Part shown: one piece after another, positions 46,270 to 63,388 of the stretch
Layout: each line of letters begins with the position of its first letter
How positions within the stretch are numbered: the first letter of the stretch is position 1
From: Megasphaera sp. MJR8396C
GTDB taxonomy: Bacteria; Bacillota; Negativicutes; Veillonellales; Megasphaeraceae
DNA: 64,000 nt
Direction: 5' to 3'
Assembly (NCBI RefSeq): GCF_001546855.1
Contig: NZ_KQ958179.1
Location: 1 to 64,000, forward strand
Notes under the pieces: model-generated
Told to the model about the DNA's origin: nothing
The model's database searches: none
What the model saw: only the letters and a program-made list of their open reading frames with translations
Translations under genes and position numbers: made by a program

Positions 46270-46725
46270 TTATGCAGCCGGATTATTTTCAATACGACTG
46301 TAGGTATTTTCGGCGAAGTTCTTCACCGTTTCCGTATCTAGGAGTTCATCGACGCCTAAGGGAATCTCAGCCATGCTTTCGTCGACGTAGACGACGTGCG
46401 TACCGGCAACCCAAACGCCTTCCGGCAGGAGTTCTACGGCCTGACGCAGATTCTTCGAGATGTCGTCAGAGAAGAGGTCGCGGTGCATGGTAGCAAAGAG
46501 AGCTACTTTCTTAGCCTTCAGCCGCGGCAAAAGGGACCGGGACTTTTCATCGAGCTTAAGATTCAAGAACCAAATGCCGGCAAAGACGATGTCATAATCA
46601 TCGAAGCTTTCTGGGGCCTCTTCCATAGGCAGAAAATCGGTGTTGGCTGGTAAAACAGAAAGGACCGCTTCAGCTAATTTTTTCGTTCTTCCCGTTTCGG
46701 ATGAGTATAAGACTAAGGCTTTCAT
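46270..46725 (-). CDS. Flavodoxin-like protein
   Basis: A 151-residue flavodoxin-fold protein. YSSETGRTKKLAEAV is the FMN-phosphate loop (S-S-x-T-G-x-T) and DYDIVFAGIWFLN the second flavin-contact region. It belongs to the short flavodoxin family with a SSETGRT start. GAAAGGAG precedes ATG 46725. About 75 bases upstream is the inverted repeat GTTGCATTTGCAAC, related to the operator of the accessory modules at 48970 and 62346. The electron partner is unknown. Confidence 0.83.
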   Translation of the reverse strand: MKALVLYSSETGRTKKLAEAVLSVLPANTDFLPMEEAPESFDDYDIVFAGIWFLNLKLDEKSRSLLPRLKAKKVALFATMHRDLFSDDISKNLRQAVELLPEGVWVAGTHVVYVDESMAEIPLGVDELLDTETVKNFAENTYSRIENNPAA

Positions 46726-46800: not shown

Positions 46801-46814
46801 GTTGCATTTGCAAC
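46801..46814. repeat. Inverted repeat upstream of the flavodoxin gene
   Basis: GTTGCATTTGCAAC is an imperfect-centre palindrome whose core TTGCATTTGCAA matches TTGCATTWRCAA, shared with the -35 regions at 48970-48991 and 62346-62363. Confidence 0.45.
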
Positions 46815-46944
46815 AAAGAAAATTTATTTTCGAAAGGTCTGCACAGCAAAGGATATCCGAAATCAGGTACACTCTGATCTTCCTAATTCATCGCAAAAAG
46901 ACGCCAGCCACAAGGGTTATATTCCGAGCGATTATTTTTTATAC

Positions 46945-47682
46945 TTATAGCTCGGAAGACAACTGAGCCTTATATTGTTTATATGCTTCATTATAAATGG
47001 CTTCCCGATATGATTCTGGAACCGGTATTTCCTCCCGGCCCCAATACCGGTCGTATGCATCACGTCCGGATACCGTTCCCTTATCAAAATCACAGATATA
47101 GCTATCATTATGAGAATTTCCCCATAAAACATATACGAGTGCTCTATGATTTAATGCATCGACTTCAATATTATTCAAATCAATAGAATATTTGTCCAAT
47201 TGACCTTGCGTATAAACAACCTTCCATAAAGGCTTAGCATACAGCGGTTGTCTACCACAAAGTCGTGAAACCAGATCCGTCAATGTATCCCCGGGGAACA
47301 GATTAAAGGTGACTCCCTCCGGAGCCTCAAAATTCGTAGTCTCTGCATTGGGCGCACCATTAATATATTTTGACTCGCCTATTTTTGTGACGGTTCGATT
47401 TTTAAAATCAATCATTTCATGATTCAAATGCGTTGGTACATACACGCCATTTCGATTAACAGAGCGTTCATACTTTATCCAGTACGTAACGCGATCTTGC
47501 TCCTTATCATATTTAATAGTCTGCGTATCAAGCGACATCTTCCAATATGAGTCTTGATTAAATGCCATCCATCGATCAGATTCATCATTGGCATACGCAA
47601 CATGGCTTATCAGACTGACAGTTACAATAAGTAAAAACATCAACAACTTTAAAAAATTTCTACATTCAACAAAAGTAATCAT
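46945..47682 (-). CDS. Exported protein of unknown function
   Basis: A 245-residue protein I do not recognise. It begins with a signal peptide (hydrophobic core about 12-28, likely cleavage after HVAYA), so it should be exported to the periplasm or outer surface. The mature part has SDRWMAFNQDSYWKMSLDT, RVTYWIKYERSV and a C-terminal SYREAIYNEAYKQYKAQL. The pattern of a short repeated beta-rich domain resembles small secreted proteins found singly in Negativicutes. Its AT content is well above that of the neighbouring housekeeping genes, which suggests acquisition. AGGAAGG stands about nine bases before ATG 47682. No partner gene is obvious. Confidence 0.7.
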   Translation of the reverse strand: MITFVECRNFLKLLMFLLIVTVSLISHVAYANDESDRWMAFNQDSYWKMSLDTQTIKYDKEQDRVTYWIKYERSVNRNGVYVPTHLNHEMIDFKNRTVTKIGESKYINGAPNAETTNFEAPEGVTFNLFPGDTLTDLVSRLCGRQPLYAKPLWKVVYTQGQLDKYSIDLNNIEVDALNHRALVYVLWGNSHNDSYICDFDKGTVSGRDAYDRYWGREEIPVPESYREAIYNEAYKQYKAQLSSEL

Positions 47683-47964
47683 AATACCCGGCCTTCCTAC
47701 TCTATTGTCTTACATCGATCAACAATTTTTATGGGGGCAGCAAGTCCTTCTCGGGACTTCTGACGCCAAGGAAATTATAAGTAAGATATCCAGTAATAAA
47801 ATAAATAGTAATCTTCCATTTTTAACCACTCATTTTGCCATTCTTATTTTTATAAATAAAACATATTTTTATTATACACCTTTTACAGGGTTATTTTTTG
47901 CTCGAACAGAACGAATCCATTCCCCCCTTCCGAATCCCCTGGGCTCCCATCCTATGCGCCCATA

Positions 47965-48002
47965 AAAAAAAGCTTCCGAAAAAATCGGAAGCTTTTTCTT
48001 TA
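47965..48002. terminator. Terminator of the microprotein transcript
   Basis: Stem AAAGCTTCCGA/TCGGAAGCTTT with a short A-rich loop and T runs on both strands (eight on minus). It lies about 70 bases past the stop of the 36-residue gene at 48070-48180. Confidence 0.8.
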
Positions 48003-48069
48003 TTTCAGAGCCGTCCTGTTCTCATGCTCTTTTGTGAGCGGTTGTGCCGAAGAAAGCACGCATTTTCAC

Positions 48070-48180
48070 TCAACCGAACAAGGCCTCATACAGCCAAAAC
48101 AGGAAACAGAGAAAAAGAATGATCGGTAAATGAGAAAATACCCAGCGGCCGATGTAAAAAGCTATCAGAAATGTACGCAT
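48070..48180 (-). CDS. Small single-span membrane protein (36 residues)
   Basis: A short minus-strand frame with GAAAGGAG eight bases before its ATG at 48180 (another ATG at 48186 lies too close to the site). The product begins MRTFLIAFYIGRWVFSHLP and ends IILFLCFLFWLYEALFG, so nearly all of it could form one membrane helix or a short hairpin. A plausible promoter (48253-48280) and a strong terminator (47965-48002) frame it as a monocistronic unit. I cannot name a family. It could be a regulator of a membrane complex or a hydrophobic type I toxin; there is no clear antisense RNA to favour the latter. Confidence 0.55.
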   Translation of the reverse strand: MRTFLIAFYIGRWVFSHLPIILFLCFLFWLYEALFG

Positions 48181-48252
48181 AACCATAGCTCCTTTCGAGG
48201 ATCACAGCAAAAAAACACCTGATGCCTACTGCATCTGATACTGGTTCTGCTC

Positions 48253-48280
48253 ATGATAGCCAAAAAAGAGGCCGCTTCAA
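48253..48280 (-). promoter_or_regulatory. Possible promoter of the microprotein gene
   Basis: Minus-strand -35 TTGAAG (48275-48280), 16-base spacer, -10 TATCAT (48253-48258), about 70 bases upstream. Confidence 0.4.
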
Positions 48281-48394
48281 CATCCTTCTTCTTTTATCTC
48301 CGAAATAATGACACATTTTTATATTTTATATATCGTTCAGATGACTTTAAAATCATCTTACCATATTACGGACTAAGGTGCAATGAAGCAAACA

Positions 48395-48560
48395 TCAAAA
48401 GAGCCTTTCAGAGCTGAAAAGGATCTGTCCCCCGAAGGCAACCGGAGTCACCGACTCTGGTACTTCGCGCAACGGCTTATTCTTCAGACTGATACTACCG
48501 GCCGATTCGCCCAGCCTGCAAAAACCGAGGGAAAGAGAATCCCTTAGACGTTTTTTAATT
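48395..48560. other. GC-rich structured non-coding stretch
   Basis: In a 0.8-kb gap without a convincing gene, this stretch stands out by GC content and folding. 48434-48468 forms CGAAG-(GCAA)-CCGGAGTC-ACC-GACTCTGG-(TA)-CTTCG, and 48405-48423 forms CCTTTCAG-AG-CTGAAAAGG. On the plus strand it is followed by a weak hairpin (GAGGGA/TCCCTT) and six T residues. It may be a small RNA, a leader or a dispersed repeat. A 74-codon minus frame (48395-48619) has a TTG start and weak site and is not called. Confidence 0.35.
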
Positions 48561-48658
48561 GTCAAAACAGATCTTCCCCGTAAATCAGTAAAACAACGAC
48601 GCTGTACGGAGAATATCAAAGTGCCTTCAATGATACTGCGTTATTTCCAGCGTCTTTA

Positions 48659-48676
48659 CTATTGCTATTGCAATAG
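48659..48676. repeat. CTATTG-N6-CAATAG element
   Basis: CTATTGCTATTGCAATAG has the same CTATTG-N6-CAATAG layout as the promoter elements at 48972-48989 and (variant) 62346-62363. The surrounding 48561-48971 holds no gene I can support. Confidence 0.5.
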
Positions 48677-48969
48677 ATACGATTAGCCCCTCAATTCACA
48701 CAGACGGCGATGTCCCAATCTGTCATCTAACGTATCCGCATCGCCAGCTTTAGCGCGTATAAAGAAGTTCTTCTTGCCAGTCGGCTCATTCGGATGTCTC
48801 GCTAGATGATGGACTTTTCTATCCACTAATCGATAACACGAAAAAAACACTTGACAATTTCCATACAGGGTATCTAACTTTTCTCAGTCTGTCTCTACCA
48901 CATAATTATTTCATTGTCAATACTGTTCAACAAAAAATATATTGTAAATAAAATATATTTTTTCAACCC

Positions 48970-49003
48970 AACTATTGCATTTACAATAGTTACATGTTAC
49001 AAT
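48970..49003 (+). promoter_or_regulatory. Promoter with palindromic operator, module A
   Basis: The inverted repeat AACTATTG-N6-CAATAGTT (48970-48991) contains the -35 TTGCAT (48975-48980). After a 17-base spacer comes -10 TACAAT (48998-49003). The same geometry recurs at 62332-62363 before the paralogous module. Confidence 0.65.
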
Positions 49004-49068
49004 AGCTGTGTAAGAATAAAGAAAGACTATTCATGTTACTGGGAAAGCCGAAGGGAGGGGCCTTAGGA

Positions 49069-49356
49069 ATGACTCAGGATGCATCTGGAAATAATGAACA
49101 GCACGCAAACATTCGCCCGAGCTGAAGAAAATGCTTCGGCTGTATCTCCGGCTGAATGCCCAGATGCTCCGGAAATTGTTAGCCATCGGGATTGCGGTCG
49201 TCGAGAGAAGAAAAACTTTACCCGCTTTATTACAACAGTGAGGCGCAGTATTGCTTTTCTTTGCCGAAAACGCCGACGATAATCGGATCCAATGCAGTAT
49301 CTCATATCTACATTAACCTGATTTTGCTGAAGACCTCAGTGTACGAGAGTATGTAA
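49069..49356 (+). pseudogene. Frameshifted copy of the 90-residue protein gene
   Basis: A broken paralogue of the gene at 62000-62272. Translating in pieces gives NEQHANIR, then after a shift near 49111-49118 ELKKMLRLYLRLNAQMLRK and LLAIGIAVVERRK, then after a +1 shift near 49205-49229 LYYNSEAQYCFSLPKTP and SNAVSHIYINLIL. The intact copy reads RAMLKKIFKQYRRMNASIR, ALAEIGITVVEGRK, HYKLYYNNDDRYCFPLPKTP and ANAVSRIYNSLIL. AAGGGAGGGG precedes ATG 49069. It lies 42 bp ahead of the nuclease/Gly-Ala-rich gene, just as the intact copy precedes its partner by 31 bp. Confidence 0.75.
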
Positions 49357-49398
49357 GGGATTTGATTTTAAGTTATTGGGAATTAGAAAAGGAGCGCT

Positions 49399-50253
49399 AT
49401 GATGAGCAATTTCGAAAAAGATGCGAAGAACATGACGGGAACCGTTGCCAAAGAAGGGTACGAAGCGAGTGTCGGCGCTAGGGCCCTTGCTCGTGCTGGG
49501 AAATGCCCTAACCTGAAAGGACATGTTCACGAGCAGATCTTCTGCGACAAGTTCAACATGAACCCCCGCAATATCTTGGAGGGAAATCACGCCCAGCTCA
49601 CGAAATCGACGACGGCAAAAATGAAGGATGTCGTTGTCTTGAACAAGAAGGGCCAGGTTGTGAAGCATTTTCAGCTGAAGGACACGACCAGCAGCTCCGG
49701 CGTTGCTAAGACGTCGAAACAGATTATCGAGAAACATTACGGCAAGACCAAGGTCATGGGCACCGAAGAAACGGCTAAGAAAGTCGCCGACAAGATTGCC
49801 AATAAGACGAATCAGAAGATTCACAGTACCAATATTTCGACGAAAACGACTACTCGCATCGCCGATAAGGCTTTGGGAAAGATGCCGACGGCGGCGGCGC
49901 TGCGCTCGGCTGCTAAGAGTGGCGGCGTCAGCGGGGCCGTCTTCGGCGCCGGTATCGAGGCCGTTTCTTCGGTTATCGATGTCGTTGACGGGAAAAAGGA
50001 CGTCGACGATGCCGTGATCGACATCGCCGGCGCCGGCATTAAGGGCGGCGTCACTGGTGCTGCGTCGGCCGCTGCCGGCAGTGCGGCTGCCGGTGCCGCC
50101 GGTGCGGCTGTGGCAGCCGTTACCGGGACGACCGTCGGCGGGGCCTTGGCGGCGACGACGGTTGGCGCCGCTACGGTTGTGGCAGCCCCGGTTGTCATTG
50201 GCTTTGCGGCCGCCTGTGCCGTCGGCAGTTTCATTTCCGACCTCTTCGATTAG
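49399..50253 (+). CDS. PD-(D/E)xK-like nuclease domain fused to a Gly/Ala-rich membrane segment
   Basis: A 284-residue protein of unknown function. Residues 1-34 carry VAKEGYEASVG, shared with its paralogue at 61573-61968. Residues 35-135 look like a PD-(D/E)xK nuclease core: Glu45 in GHVHEQIF, Asp77 in KMKDVVVLN, then Gln92-x-Lys94 in FQLKD. Residues 176-284 form a Gly/Ala-rich, glycine-zipper-like region (GAGIEAVSSVIDVVDGKKD, then long small-residue hydrophobic stretches) ending SFISDLFD, and are closely alignable to the paralogue. This suggests a toxin- or defence-type effector that inserts in membranes, but this is inferred. AAAGGAG precedes tandem ATGs at 49399 and 49402. Confidence 0.72.
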   Translation: MMSNFEKDAKNMTGTVAKEGYEASVGARALARAGKCPNLKGHVHEQIFCDKFNMNPRNILEGNHAQLTKSTTAKMKDVVVLNKKGQVVKHFQLKDTTSSSGVAKTSKQIIEKHYGKTKVMGTEETAKKVADKIANKTNQKIHSTNISTKTTTRIADKALGKMPTAAALRSAAKSGGVSGAVFGAGIEAVSSVIDVVDGKKDVDDAVIDIAGAGIKGGVTGAASAAAGSAAAGAAGAAVAAVTGTTVGGALAATTVGAATVVAAPVVIGFAAACAVGSFISDLFD

Positions 50254-50299
50254 TAGATTTTCCTAATTCCTATTTTTAACAAGTACCACAGAAATTGCA

Positions 50300-50346
50300 G
50301 AAAAAAACAGAGAAGGAATGTTCTTCATTCCCTCTCTGTTTTTTAT
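50300..50346. terminator. Bidirectional terminator
   Basis: Stem AAACAGAGA-AGGAATG with CATTCC-CTCTCTGTTT, 5-base loop, T run on plus and T-rich on minus. It separates the nuclease-like gene (+) from the pyruvate-kinase-like gene (-). Confidence 0.85.
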
Positions 50347-50353
50347 TGCCCCT

Positions 50354-53818: not shown

Positions 53819-54000
53819 GGTATAATTTTTCTCACCTCTATGATAAGGACTTTTCACTGCGGAATCATCTGCCGATTTTATGTGCTGACTCTATTTCCGA
53901 TAAAAAATAAGAGATTTACTTCCATTTATGCTACTCGGAATGGATATATGTAACGATTAGTTGTATACTATATGTATAAATAAAACAAGAGGTGGTAAAT

Positions 54001-54360
54001 TTGAATACTTTAGTAAAAACGCATTACATTAGAAATAACCTCATAGCCCTTTTCTTCGGAGTGATAGTACCAGCATTTCTCTTGACAAGTTCTCGCAGCA
54101 ACGCTTGTGGTGCCTACTTATTAACGGCACTAATCGCACTAATACCAACAAATATTGCCTATAGTAAGGGTAGGAATTTCGCTAAATGGTTTATTTATAG
54201 TACCTTTTTATGGATTATTGCCATAATTCATAGTATAAAAATTACTCCTAATGATAAATCAAGAATCAGAGCCGGATATCATAAATGCCCTTACTGCGGC
54301 GAACTCAGCCGCCCGGAAGCCACCGTTTGTCATTGCTGCGGCCGAGATTTATTTATATAA
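54001..54360 (+). CDS. Membrane protein with C-terminal zinc ribbon (paralogue 1)
   Basis: A 119-residue protein I cannot name. Three hydrophobic segments (about 14-30, 38-52 and 62-80) are followed by a cytoplasmic-type zinc ribbon, CPYCGELSRPEATVCHCCGRDL (four zinc cysteines as two CxxC pairs). The start is TTG 54001, five bases after AAGAGGTGG; a GTG at 53992 lies within that site. The gene is AT-rich. It is followed 40 bp later by a close paralogue, so the two are likely a tandem duplication and one operon. Confidence 0.78.
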   Translation: MNTLVKTHYIRNNLIALFFGVIVPAFLLTSSRSNACGAYLLTALIALIPTNIAYSKGRNFAKWFIYSTFLWIIAIIHSIKITPNDKSRIRAGYHKCPYCGELSRPEATVCHCCGRDLFI

Positions 54361-54400: not shown

Positions 54401-54763
54401 ATGGAAAAACCACACAATGTACGTTACTCATTAATAGCTTTTTTAATCTTTTCTATTCTCGTTCCCATCCTATTATCCGATGTGAACTTATTGGGGAATA
54501 AAGGTGAGCTCTATATGGAGTATTGGATTTTCTCGGTATTAGCGCTAATCCCTGCCAACATCGCCTCCAACAAAGGCCGCAGCTTTGCCATTTGGTATAT
54601 CTATGGACTTTGCCTTTTTCTAATCGCCTTCATTCATAGTTTATGCATCAAGGACAATGATATTGCTAAAACGTTCAAGGGCTGGCATAAATGCCGACAC
54701 TGCGGCGAATTTAGCCAACCGGAAGCGACGGTTTGTCACTGCTGCGGCCGGGATTTAGCTTAG
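54401..54763 (+). CDS. Membrane protein with C-terminal zinc ribbon (paralogue 2)
   Basis: A 120-residue paralogue of the preceding gene. The shared plan is clear: N-terminal hydrophobic helix, ALIPANIASNKGRSFAIWYIYGL (ALIPTNIAYSKGRNFAKWFIYST in its neighbour), a third helix, then HKCRHCGEFSQPEATVCHC ending CGRDLA. ACGAGAGG lies about ten bases before the ATG. The ribbon may bind another protein or nucleic acid at the membrane surface; function unknown. Confidence 0.78.
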   Translation: MEKPHNVRYSLIAFLIFSILVPILLSDVNLLGNKGELYMEYWIFSVLALIPANIASNKGRSFAIWYIYGLCLFLIAFIHSLCIKDNDIAKTFKGWHKCRHCGEFSQPEATVCHCCGRDLA

Positions 54764-61999: not shown

Positions 62000-62272
62000 T
62001 TATACAAATTGGGGCAAAATCAAAGAATTATAAATCCGAGATACAGCGTTGGCCCCGGTCCTCGATCCGCTTGGCGTTTTCGGCAAAGGGAAGCAATACC
62101 GATCATCGTTGTTATAGTAAAGCTTGTAATGCTTTCTGCCTTCAACAACGGTAATCCCGATTTCAGCCAACGCCCGCCGAATCGATGCATTCATCCTTCG
62201 ATACTGCTTAAAAATTTTCTTTAACATTGCTCGAATATGCTGTGCTTCATCCAACACTGCTTTTTTCGCCAT
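62000..62272 (-). CDS. Small basic protein of unknown function (90 residues)
   Basis: An unrecognised small basic protein. The N-terminal half is helical (EAQHIRAMLKKIFKQYRRM, ASIRRALAEIGITVVEG). The C-terminal half RKHYKLYYNNDDRYCFPLPKTPSGSRTG (in two parts) and ANAVSRIYN resembles the pattern RKHYKL..RY...PKTPS..R.G.N seen in small proteins with a HicA-like fold, but this is only a resemblance. Start ATG 62272 follows AAGGGAG by nine bases; a longer frame to 62320 lacks a site. A frameshifted copy lies at 49069-49356. It is encoded directly upstream of the Gly/Ala-rich protein and could be its regulator or partner. Confidence 0.65.
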   Translation of the reverse strand: MAKKAVLDEAQHIRAMLKKIFKQYRRMNASIRRALAEIGITVVEGRKHYKLYYNNDDRYCFPLPKTPSGSRTGANAVSRIYNSLILPQFV

Positions 62273-62331: not shown

Positions 62332-62375
62332 ATTATATCAGTTATCTGTTGCTAATGCAATAGCAAATGCAATAT
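62332..62375 (-). promoter_or_regulatory. Promoter with palindromic operator, module B
   Basis: Minus-strand -35 TTGCAT (62355-62360), 17-base spacer, -10 TATAAT (62332-62337). The -35 lies inside CTATTGCATTAGCAACAG (62346-62363, minus orientation), a variant of the module A palindrome. Next to it (62364-62375) is ATATTGCATTTG, which makes a 12-base direct repeat. Confidence 0.65.
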
Positions 62376-62461: not shown

Positions 62462-63388
62462 ATGCCATTACCCATATTGACAGCTTTGCGGGCAGCAGGA
62501 ATCATTGCAGCGGGAGCTACCGGATCCCTTCCACTGGCCTTAATTGCAGGGGCAGTAACGGAAGCTATGGTCTCGACGGAAACTGATAACTCAGGAGAAT
62601 CTGAGACGAAAACAGCCGAAGCCCAAAAAAACTCGACGGAGACTACGGATACACTTACGGAACCGACTGAGGCTGCCACAGCCGCAGGAATGGCAGCCGC
62701 AACGGAAGAAGCAGCTAAGACTATAGGAAACATCATGGAAAGAGCTTCTTTAAAAACTGGTGACAATTTCTCCGATGAAAAGAAAGAATATACCGTAGCC
62801 GAAGCTGCTGATTTGCTGGGAATCAGCCAATATACGGTAAAAAAGAAAATCCGTGAAAAAAAACTTCTCGGACGCATCGATGGAAAGAAATATATGGTTT
62901 TCGCGGAGTCAATCCAAGAGTATTCTAAAAACGCCAAAAAGTCTGGACATATTCTGGGAGATCCAGTAAGCGGCGAAGAGTCCGCTACCGAGGCGTGGAA
63001 AAATCCCGCTCTACTGGAAAAATCTATTGAAAGTGCAAGATTACAGCAAGAGATCTTCTCTCTAGAAATGGAAAAACTTGAGTTATCAAAAAAAATGGCC
63101 AAGAAATCAAACGACGAAGATCAAGTAGACAAATTGAGCCAACAAATTATCGATAAAAAAATTCAAATATTAGAGATTTCTAAAGAGATAAAGATATTCG
63201 AAGCCCAAATTCTGTATTTATCAGAGCATCCTGACCTCTCCCAAGACAACGATGAGGATATCAATATAAAGTCTTTTATGGAAGACGATTCGGATTTTTT
63301 CACGAAAGATGATTCGGACCTTTTCCCAGAAACTGATAGAGCTGTTGAGAAAGAGCCTAACAGAAAAAAAATACCCAAGAGAAAATAA
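62462..63388 (+). CDS. Predicted membrane-anchored helix-turn-helix coiled-coil protein
   Basis: A 308-residue protein. Residues 8-36 (ALRAAGIIAAGATGSLPLAL and on) form a small-residue hydrophobic hairpin. A long Thr/Glu/Ala-rich linker follows (about 38-105). Residues 108-156 are an excisionase/MerR-like helix-turn-helix (EYTVAEAADLLGISQYTVKK, GRIDGKKYMVF). A coiled coil (about 183-255) and an acidic tail with two DDSD repeats end in a basic cluster. The start at 62462 has GAGGAGGTGAT, which decides against the longer frame from 62312. The gene is AT-rich, and it is divergent from module B, whose operators it may bind. No family assigned. Confidence 0.75.
   Translation: MPLPILTALRAAGIIAAGATGSLPLALIAGAVTEAMVSTETDNSGESETKTAEAQKNSTETTDTLTEPTEAATAAGMAAATEEAAKTIGNIMERASLKTGDNFSDEKKEYTVAEAADLLGISQYTVKKKIREKKLLGRIDGKKYMVFAESIQEYSKNAKKSGHILGDPVSGEESATEAWKNPALLEKSIESARLQQEIFSLEMEKLELSKKMAKKSNDEDQVDKLSQQIIDKKIQILEISKEIKIFEAQILYLSEHPDLSQDNDEDINIKSFMEDDSDFFTKDDSDLFPETDRAVEKEPNRKKIPKRK

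Follow-up and report, generated by a model that had tools for sequence, protein, structure and literature searches.

Two diverged gene modules of Megasphaera sp. MJR8396C, referred to here as A and B, have palindromic sites centred over the −35 region of their predicted promoters. On balance, we favour the view that both sites are bound by the same HcpR-like regulator and that they lie in a repressing position. The identity of the palindrome comes from the fourth site of the set, upstream of a flavodoxin-family gene. This site very probably belongs to an HcpR-type regulon. The features of the window (the whole 64-kb stretch of DNA analysed) are listed in Table 1.

Table 1. Sites, predicted promoters and genes in the window. 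Centres are given with respect to the predicted transcription start; scores are from the weight matrix.
Feature	Position	Strand	Details
Flavodoxin-family gene, HcpR-type regulon member	46270..46725	−	
Flavodoxin operator GTTGCAAATGCAAC	46801..46814	−	centre −41.5; −10 TATAGT 46778-46773; kept in 5 other species of the genus; score 24.2
Third site CTATTGCTATTGCAATAG	48657..48678	.	orphan; score 14.5
Site A	48970..48991	+	centre −29.5, over the −35; score 15.7
Predicted module A promoter	48975..49003	+	TTGCAT 48975-48980; 17 bp; TG-T-TACAAT; −10 48998-49003; extended −10
Small gene of module A, a broken counterpart of the protein at 62000-62272	49027..49326	+	43% identity; 2 TGA and 1 TAG
Module A effector candidate, 284 aa	49399..50253	+	PD-(D/E)XK-like domain (E45, D77, Q92-x-K94) and Gly/Ala-rich tail
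Module B Gly/Ala-rich protein, 131 aa	61573..61968	−	ends as in the 284-aa protein; no nuclease domain
Module B small protein, 90 aa, intact	62000..62272	−	start and ribosome site from sequence; longest ORF starts 62320
Predicted module B promoter	62332..62360	−	TTGCAT 62360-62355; 17 bp; TG-A-TATAAT; −10 62337-62332; extended −10
Site B	62344..62365	−	centre −29.5 of module B promoter; score 19.8
HTH_17 (excisionase-type) protein	62462..63388	+	divergent from module B; E 5.6e-8

Palindromic sites at the module promoters

The palindromes at the modules are real. Site A is AACTATTGCATTTACAATAGTT, with perfect 8-bp arms (AACTATTG-N6-CAATAGTT), and its minus-strand core is TTGTAAATGCAA. At site B, the palindrome CTATTGCATTAGCAACAG (positions 62346-62363) has one arm mismatch. 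As the earlier note had described, the inverted repeats at both modules contain TTGCAT, followed by a 17-base spacer and then TACAAT or TATAAT. In both promoters TTGCAT is a poor −35 element (3/6) and the extended −10 is good (TGTTACAAT and TGATATAAT). The −10 hexamer, which matches at 5/6 positions in A and 6/6 in B, is 17 nt from the centre of the palindrome.

We counted matches to the palindrome by pattern searches of the whole genome (2,452,772 bases, or 2.45 Mb, in 69 contigs) with the reversed pattern as a control. The exact sequence CTATTG-N6-CAATAG occurs twice, at 48659 and 48972, a pair within 313 bp, and never in the control. Allowing up to one mismatch gave 6 sites in the genome and 4 in the control; three of the six, including 62346, are in the module region. 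Across 24 related genomes there is a single exact occurrence.

The site at 48659-48676 is an exact match, as claimed previously, but it does not share the layout of sites A and B. A search in both directions from its centre, at spacings of 17 and 29 nt, gave no −10 element. The site was rejected as a third promoter because there is no −10 at either the class II or the −35-overlap spacing. A near-palindrome, ATATATTGTAAATAAAATATAT, is found at 48937-48958, some 33 bp upstream of site A, and resembles a degenerate operator (matrix score 6.6).

The flavodoxin site and a probable HcpR-type regulon

The core match previously reported ahead of the flavodoxin gene is present (TTGCATTTGCAA, 46802-46813). 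With its centre at −41.5, it is activator-type and does not overlap a −35 element. In orthologous regions the operator reads GTTGCAAATGCAAC in our genome and in G013 (and, by pattern, in G012), GTTGTAAATACAAC in G007 and G003, and GTTGTAAATGTAAC in G001. The site stays symmetric, and its arms covary between species, from TTGC..GCAA to TTGT..ACAA.

Sites with up to one mismatch to GTTGYAAATRCAAC exceed the reversed control across the genus. The exact sites that we inspected precede genes for hcp, ferredoxin, flavodiiron protein (NO reductase) and flavodoxin. The core TTGYAAATRYAA occurs six times in the genome, ahead of the ferredoxin, hcp, flavodiiron protein and flavodoxin genes, at site A and at one other position, against none in the control. 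The operator precedes hcp in six genomes (G000, which is our own, G013, G012, G007, G003 and G006) and an frdX-type ferredoxin gene in three (G000:C5, G007 and G003); a second ferredoxin gene also has the site. The products are well assigned: hydroxylamine reductase (hybrid cluster protein) scored 748 bits against an NCBIfam cut-off of 367, and the flavodiiron protein scored 704, with a cut-off of 635, as anaerobic NO reductase flavorubredoxin in a family search.

The spacing between site and promoter is fixed. In 26 of 26 regulon promoters, comprising 20 non-crp targets with a TATA(A/C/G)T box and six crp-linked ferredoxin promoters, the −10 element is exactly 29 nt from the palindrome centre, which places the centre at −41.5. 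Class II activators of the CRP/FNR family classically sit at this position. The symmetric pattern RTTGYNWWNRCAAY matched 16 positions genome-wide, compared with 4 in the control. Among these matches, five regulon sites have a −10 at 29 nt; of the sites that we inspected, only A and B have a −10 at 17 nt, and the unrelated ones have neither spacing. What the sequences show directly is the set of sites, their conservation across the genus, their fixed spacing and their target genes.

Six genomes have a CRP/FNR gene that diverges from a ferredoxin gene across an intergenic copy of this site: G002, G006, G011, G014, G015 and our own, where the site has one mismatch and the regulator gene is at G000:C9:38893-39552 (L157). 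A contig match to L039 identifies G015 as Megasphaera paucivorans. The product has cNMP_binding and HTH_Crp_2 domains. On the ferredoxin side, the −10 is at 29 nt in 6/6 genomes. Toward the crp gene, the site is downstream of promoter-like sequence in most of the six, a placement that would fit negative autoregulation. A MarR-type regulator was rejected: a MarR gene adjoins hcp in G006 only, and the site accompanies the CRP/FNR gene in all six genomes named above.

In the recognition helix (..SVDRSAMS..), Arg occupies the position of CRP R180 and Ser that of E181. For HcpR, residue R180 has been linked with motif position G3, residues 180 and 181 of the helix with variation of the motif, and Ser-181 with a divergent motif in the proteins of C. 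difficile and C. thermocellum (Rodionov et al. 2005, PMC1274295). The Megasphaera regulon shares the Arg at the R180 position together with G at motif position 3, and shares Ser at the E181 position with the two clostridial proteins. Like the published HcpR regulon (PMC1274295; C. difficile hcpR, PMC12915319), it includes hcp and ferredoxin genes, with a palindromic site and a CRP/FNR protein encoded beside a target. In Megasphaera-like genomes NO-detoxifying enzymes are also targets. The flavodoxin gene and the nuclease module appear as targets here, binding at the module being predicted. Published motifs are GTAAC-N4-GTTAC, TTGAC-N4-GTCAA and TGTGA-N6-TCACA; the one here, GTTGY-N4-RCAAC, is distinct from these and matches none of the HcpR consensus motifs in the text of PMC1274295. 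Since the HcpR motif varies with residues 180 and 181, we regard GTTGY-N4-RCAAC as a variant. In the literature searched, no paper combined HcpR with Megasphaera, and among the papers listed none combined it with other Negativicutes. Taken together, the GTTGYAAATRCAAC site family is a predicted HcpR-type nitrosative-stress regulon with a variant motif.

Relationship of the module sites to the regulon

We scored the 64-kb window with a weight matrix trained on 25 regulon sites that excluded those of the modules. The four highest scores were those of the flavodoxin site, itself a training site, then site B, site A and the site at 48657 (Table 1); the next were 12.0 and 10.5. In simulated sequence, a score of at least 14.4 has an expected frequency of 0.08-0.16 per 64 kb. 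A match inside a coding region, at G000:C19:73079, scores 14.8, so chance can produce such scores in a genome. The training sites score between 19.1 and 28.6. Site B is within this range, whereas site A is below every training site and has the outer G/C of the motif on neither side. Hence, site B looks like a full member of the regulon and site A like a weak one. As duplicates, A and B have one origin and are not independent observations.

The earlier note had proposed a single regulator for both copies. One regulator could indeed recognise A, B and the flavodoxin site, since a single matrix derived from independent genes accommodates all three. The modules are diverged duplicates, with DNA blocks 67-74% identical, so common descent accounts for part of what the two copies share.

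Sites A and B are not in the class II position, their centre being 17 nt rather than 29 nt from the −10 element. They are therefore unlike the activator sites of the other targets and have the geometry of a repressor site. We looked for a site at −29.5 among the other regulon members and found none. In B we also considered another site in tandem, at −41.5, and rejected it on its matrix score of only 3.8.

These positions suggest a model. An HcpR-like CRP/FNR regulator of nitric-oxide and nitrosative-stress genes would bind the palindrome as its operator. At the hcp, ferredoxin, flavodiiron protein and flavodoxin genes, a dimer at −41.5 would replace the missing −35 contact, giving class II activation. 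At the modules, the promoters have a good extended −10, and the same type of site, centred at −29.5, covers their −35 region; a dimer bound here should keep RNA polymerase out. Binding of the regulator would shut the modules, and its absence from the site would leave them open. We infer binding of the CRP/FNR protein at the module sites, and repression from geometry, because the centre of the site is over the −35 and spacer.

Could the palindrome of A and B have been inherited by duplication from one ancestral promoter and be the site of a different regulator, with its HcpR-type likeness due to coincidence or family resemblance? We consider this rather unlikely. The candidates would be another CRP/FNR paralogue, at least two more CRP/FNR proteins being above the Pfam cut-off in this genome, or a module-borne HTH protein such as that at 62462-63388. 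Site A and the 48659 site have CTATTG..CAATAG flanks that the regulon sites (TGTTG..CAACR) do not, and the HTH_17 gene shares an intergenic region with module B, from which it diverges. However, the score of site B is inside the true regulon range. Furthermore, the HTH protein is an ORFan: it has no relatives in 150 related genomes and no copy by module A. For these reasons we rejected this protein, which had been put forward previously as the regulator; the site family, by contrast, occurs throughout the genus and is linked to an HcpR-like CRP/FNR gene at another locus. Its N-terminus is hydrophobic and Gly/Ala-rich, like the module tails.

It is quite improbable that there is no operator at all, so that TTGCAT would merely be a −35 element and the palindrome an accident of AT-rich sequence that duplication then copied. 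With up to three mismatches allowed, CTATTG-N6-CAATAG shows no enrichment in the window, with 27 matches where 21 are expected. Nor is the 12-base core TTGC-N4-GCAA enriched genome-wide (40, with 67 in the control); the core by itself means little and, its count being below control, was rejected as marking a genome-wide regulon. Against this stand the rarity of matrix scores such as those of A, B and the third site, the poor quality of TTGCAT as a −35 element, and the pattern of divergence. The alignment of the two promoters has 24 identities over 32 bases. Of the 18 bp of the site, 14 positions are kept between A and B, compared with about 3 of 8 in the stretch that follows, so the arms are better kept than the remaining spacer.

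That the regulator activates the modules from a weaker second start 12 bp downstream, with the centre then at −41.5 and class II as in all other targets, is highly improbable and was rejected: at 29 nt, A has GTAAGA and B has GTAATA, with 1/6 matches each, whereas the 20 non-crp targets have TATA(A/C/G)T. The favoured reading is that the HcpR-like regulator would repress a nuclease module that was probably acquired.

Gene content and origin of the modules

The module encodes a candidate nuclease of PD-(D/E)XK-like type that carries a Gly/Ala-rich tail. In the 284-aa protein, E45, D77, Q92 and K94 are invariant among 14 sequences and occur in the order expected for such nucleases. The structure model is good for approximately residues 30-160; the tail is predicted to be helical, with low confidence. 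Most structural matches to the N-terminal domain are nucleases of the PD-(D/E)XK fold or its relatives. The best neighbour is PaqCI (Z 6.2 over 119 residues), and a Z below 8 is no proof of fold. We identified no close sequence relative with a solved structure. Compared with PD-(D/E)XK nucleases (PaqCI, EcoT38I, HindIII; Can2/Card1), the catalytic residues are alike and the fold may be as well; the 284-aa protein differs in its fusion to the Gly/Ala-rich tail. The nuclease-like part also matches the PADLOC candidate defence family PDC-M72B, weakly and partially (E 4.6e-6, residues 31-109), and this was the one component model of PDC-M72 to match.

Relatives of the 284-aa protein are found in Selenomonadaceae, Phascolarctobacterium, Lachnospiraceae, Bacillus and others, in varying gene neighbourhoods. 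In Megasphaera paucivorans (L039, 2843-6789), a 277-aa relative follows genes for a dynamin-like protein, with an N-terminal HTH and LeoBC-like, and a JukA-family protein (E 1.9e-65); serine recombinase genes flank this locus. In viral, plasmid and phage collections, the 284-aa protein had no match to a plasmid or a viral contig; the searches gave one unverified faecal 'phage' record (MT837620.1), and its protein resembles that of a [Ruminococcus] torques contig.

Scanning the upstream regions of 13 nuclease relatives revealed no palindrome at any promoter. The single TATTG-N6-CAATA among them (L038) is inside a short reading frame with no promoter near. Conservation of the palindrome along with the nuclease family was therefore rejected. 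The module is thus accessory, and its operator is local to the Megasphaera sp. MJR8396C genome and not general to the nuclease family.

The small 90-aa protein has matches in related genomes (L018, L009, L011-L017 and L019), where it corresponds to the C-terminal domain of far larger proteins, and it also matches PHROG 2053, of unknown function. A profile match to HicA (6hpb) is weak (E 0.32); the topology and an invariant His in a G-x-H-type motif recall HicA. The 131-aa protein of module B keeps the first ~29 residues and the Gly/Ala-rich tail, the central nuclease-like domain having been lost in frame. The decay of the two copies is complementary: in A the nuclease is intact and the small gene broken; in B the small gene is intact and the nuclease domain lost.

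Module A is located between the flavodoxin promoter and the pyruvate kinase gene (46815-50353). In G003 these two genes nearly abut, in G013 two other small genes separate them, and in G012 the interval holds a 245-aa gene that is found here at 46945-47682. The interval is thus a variable spot. Elsewhere in the window, the neighbouring genes at 53992-54360 and 54401-54763 encode small membrane proteins that resemble each other and end in zinc-ribbon-like motifs at the C-terminus, likely a tandem duplication.

Implications

The sites described here define, from sequence alone, a nitrosative-stress regulon of Megasphaera-like anaerobes whose recognition site is a variant. They also point to a link between this regulon and a nuclease module resembling a defence or toxin element. 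It is conceivable, if unlikely, that the NO-stress regulator was recruited to silence an acquired, possibly membrane-linked nuclease module, and that, after the complementary decay of the two copies, the shared operator co-regulates the surviving halves in trans, much as in a toxin-antitoxin or defence unit that has been split. If the link is true, nitric-oxide stress would be tied to the control of accessory, defence-like genes.
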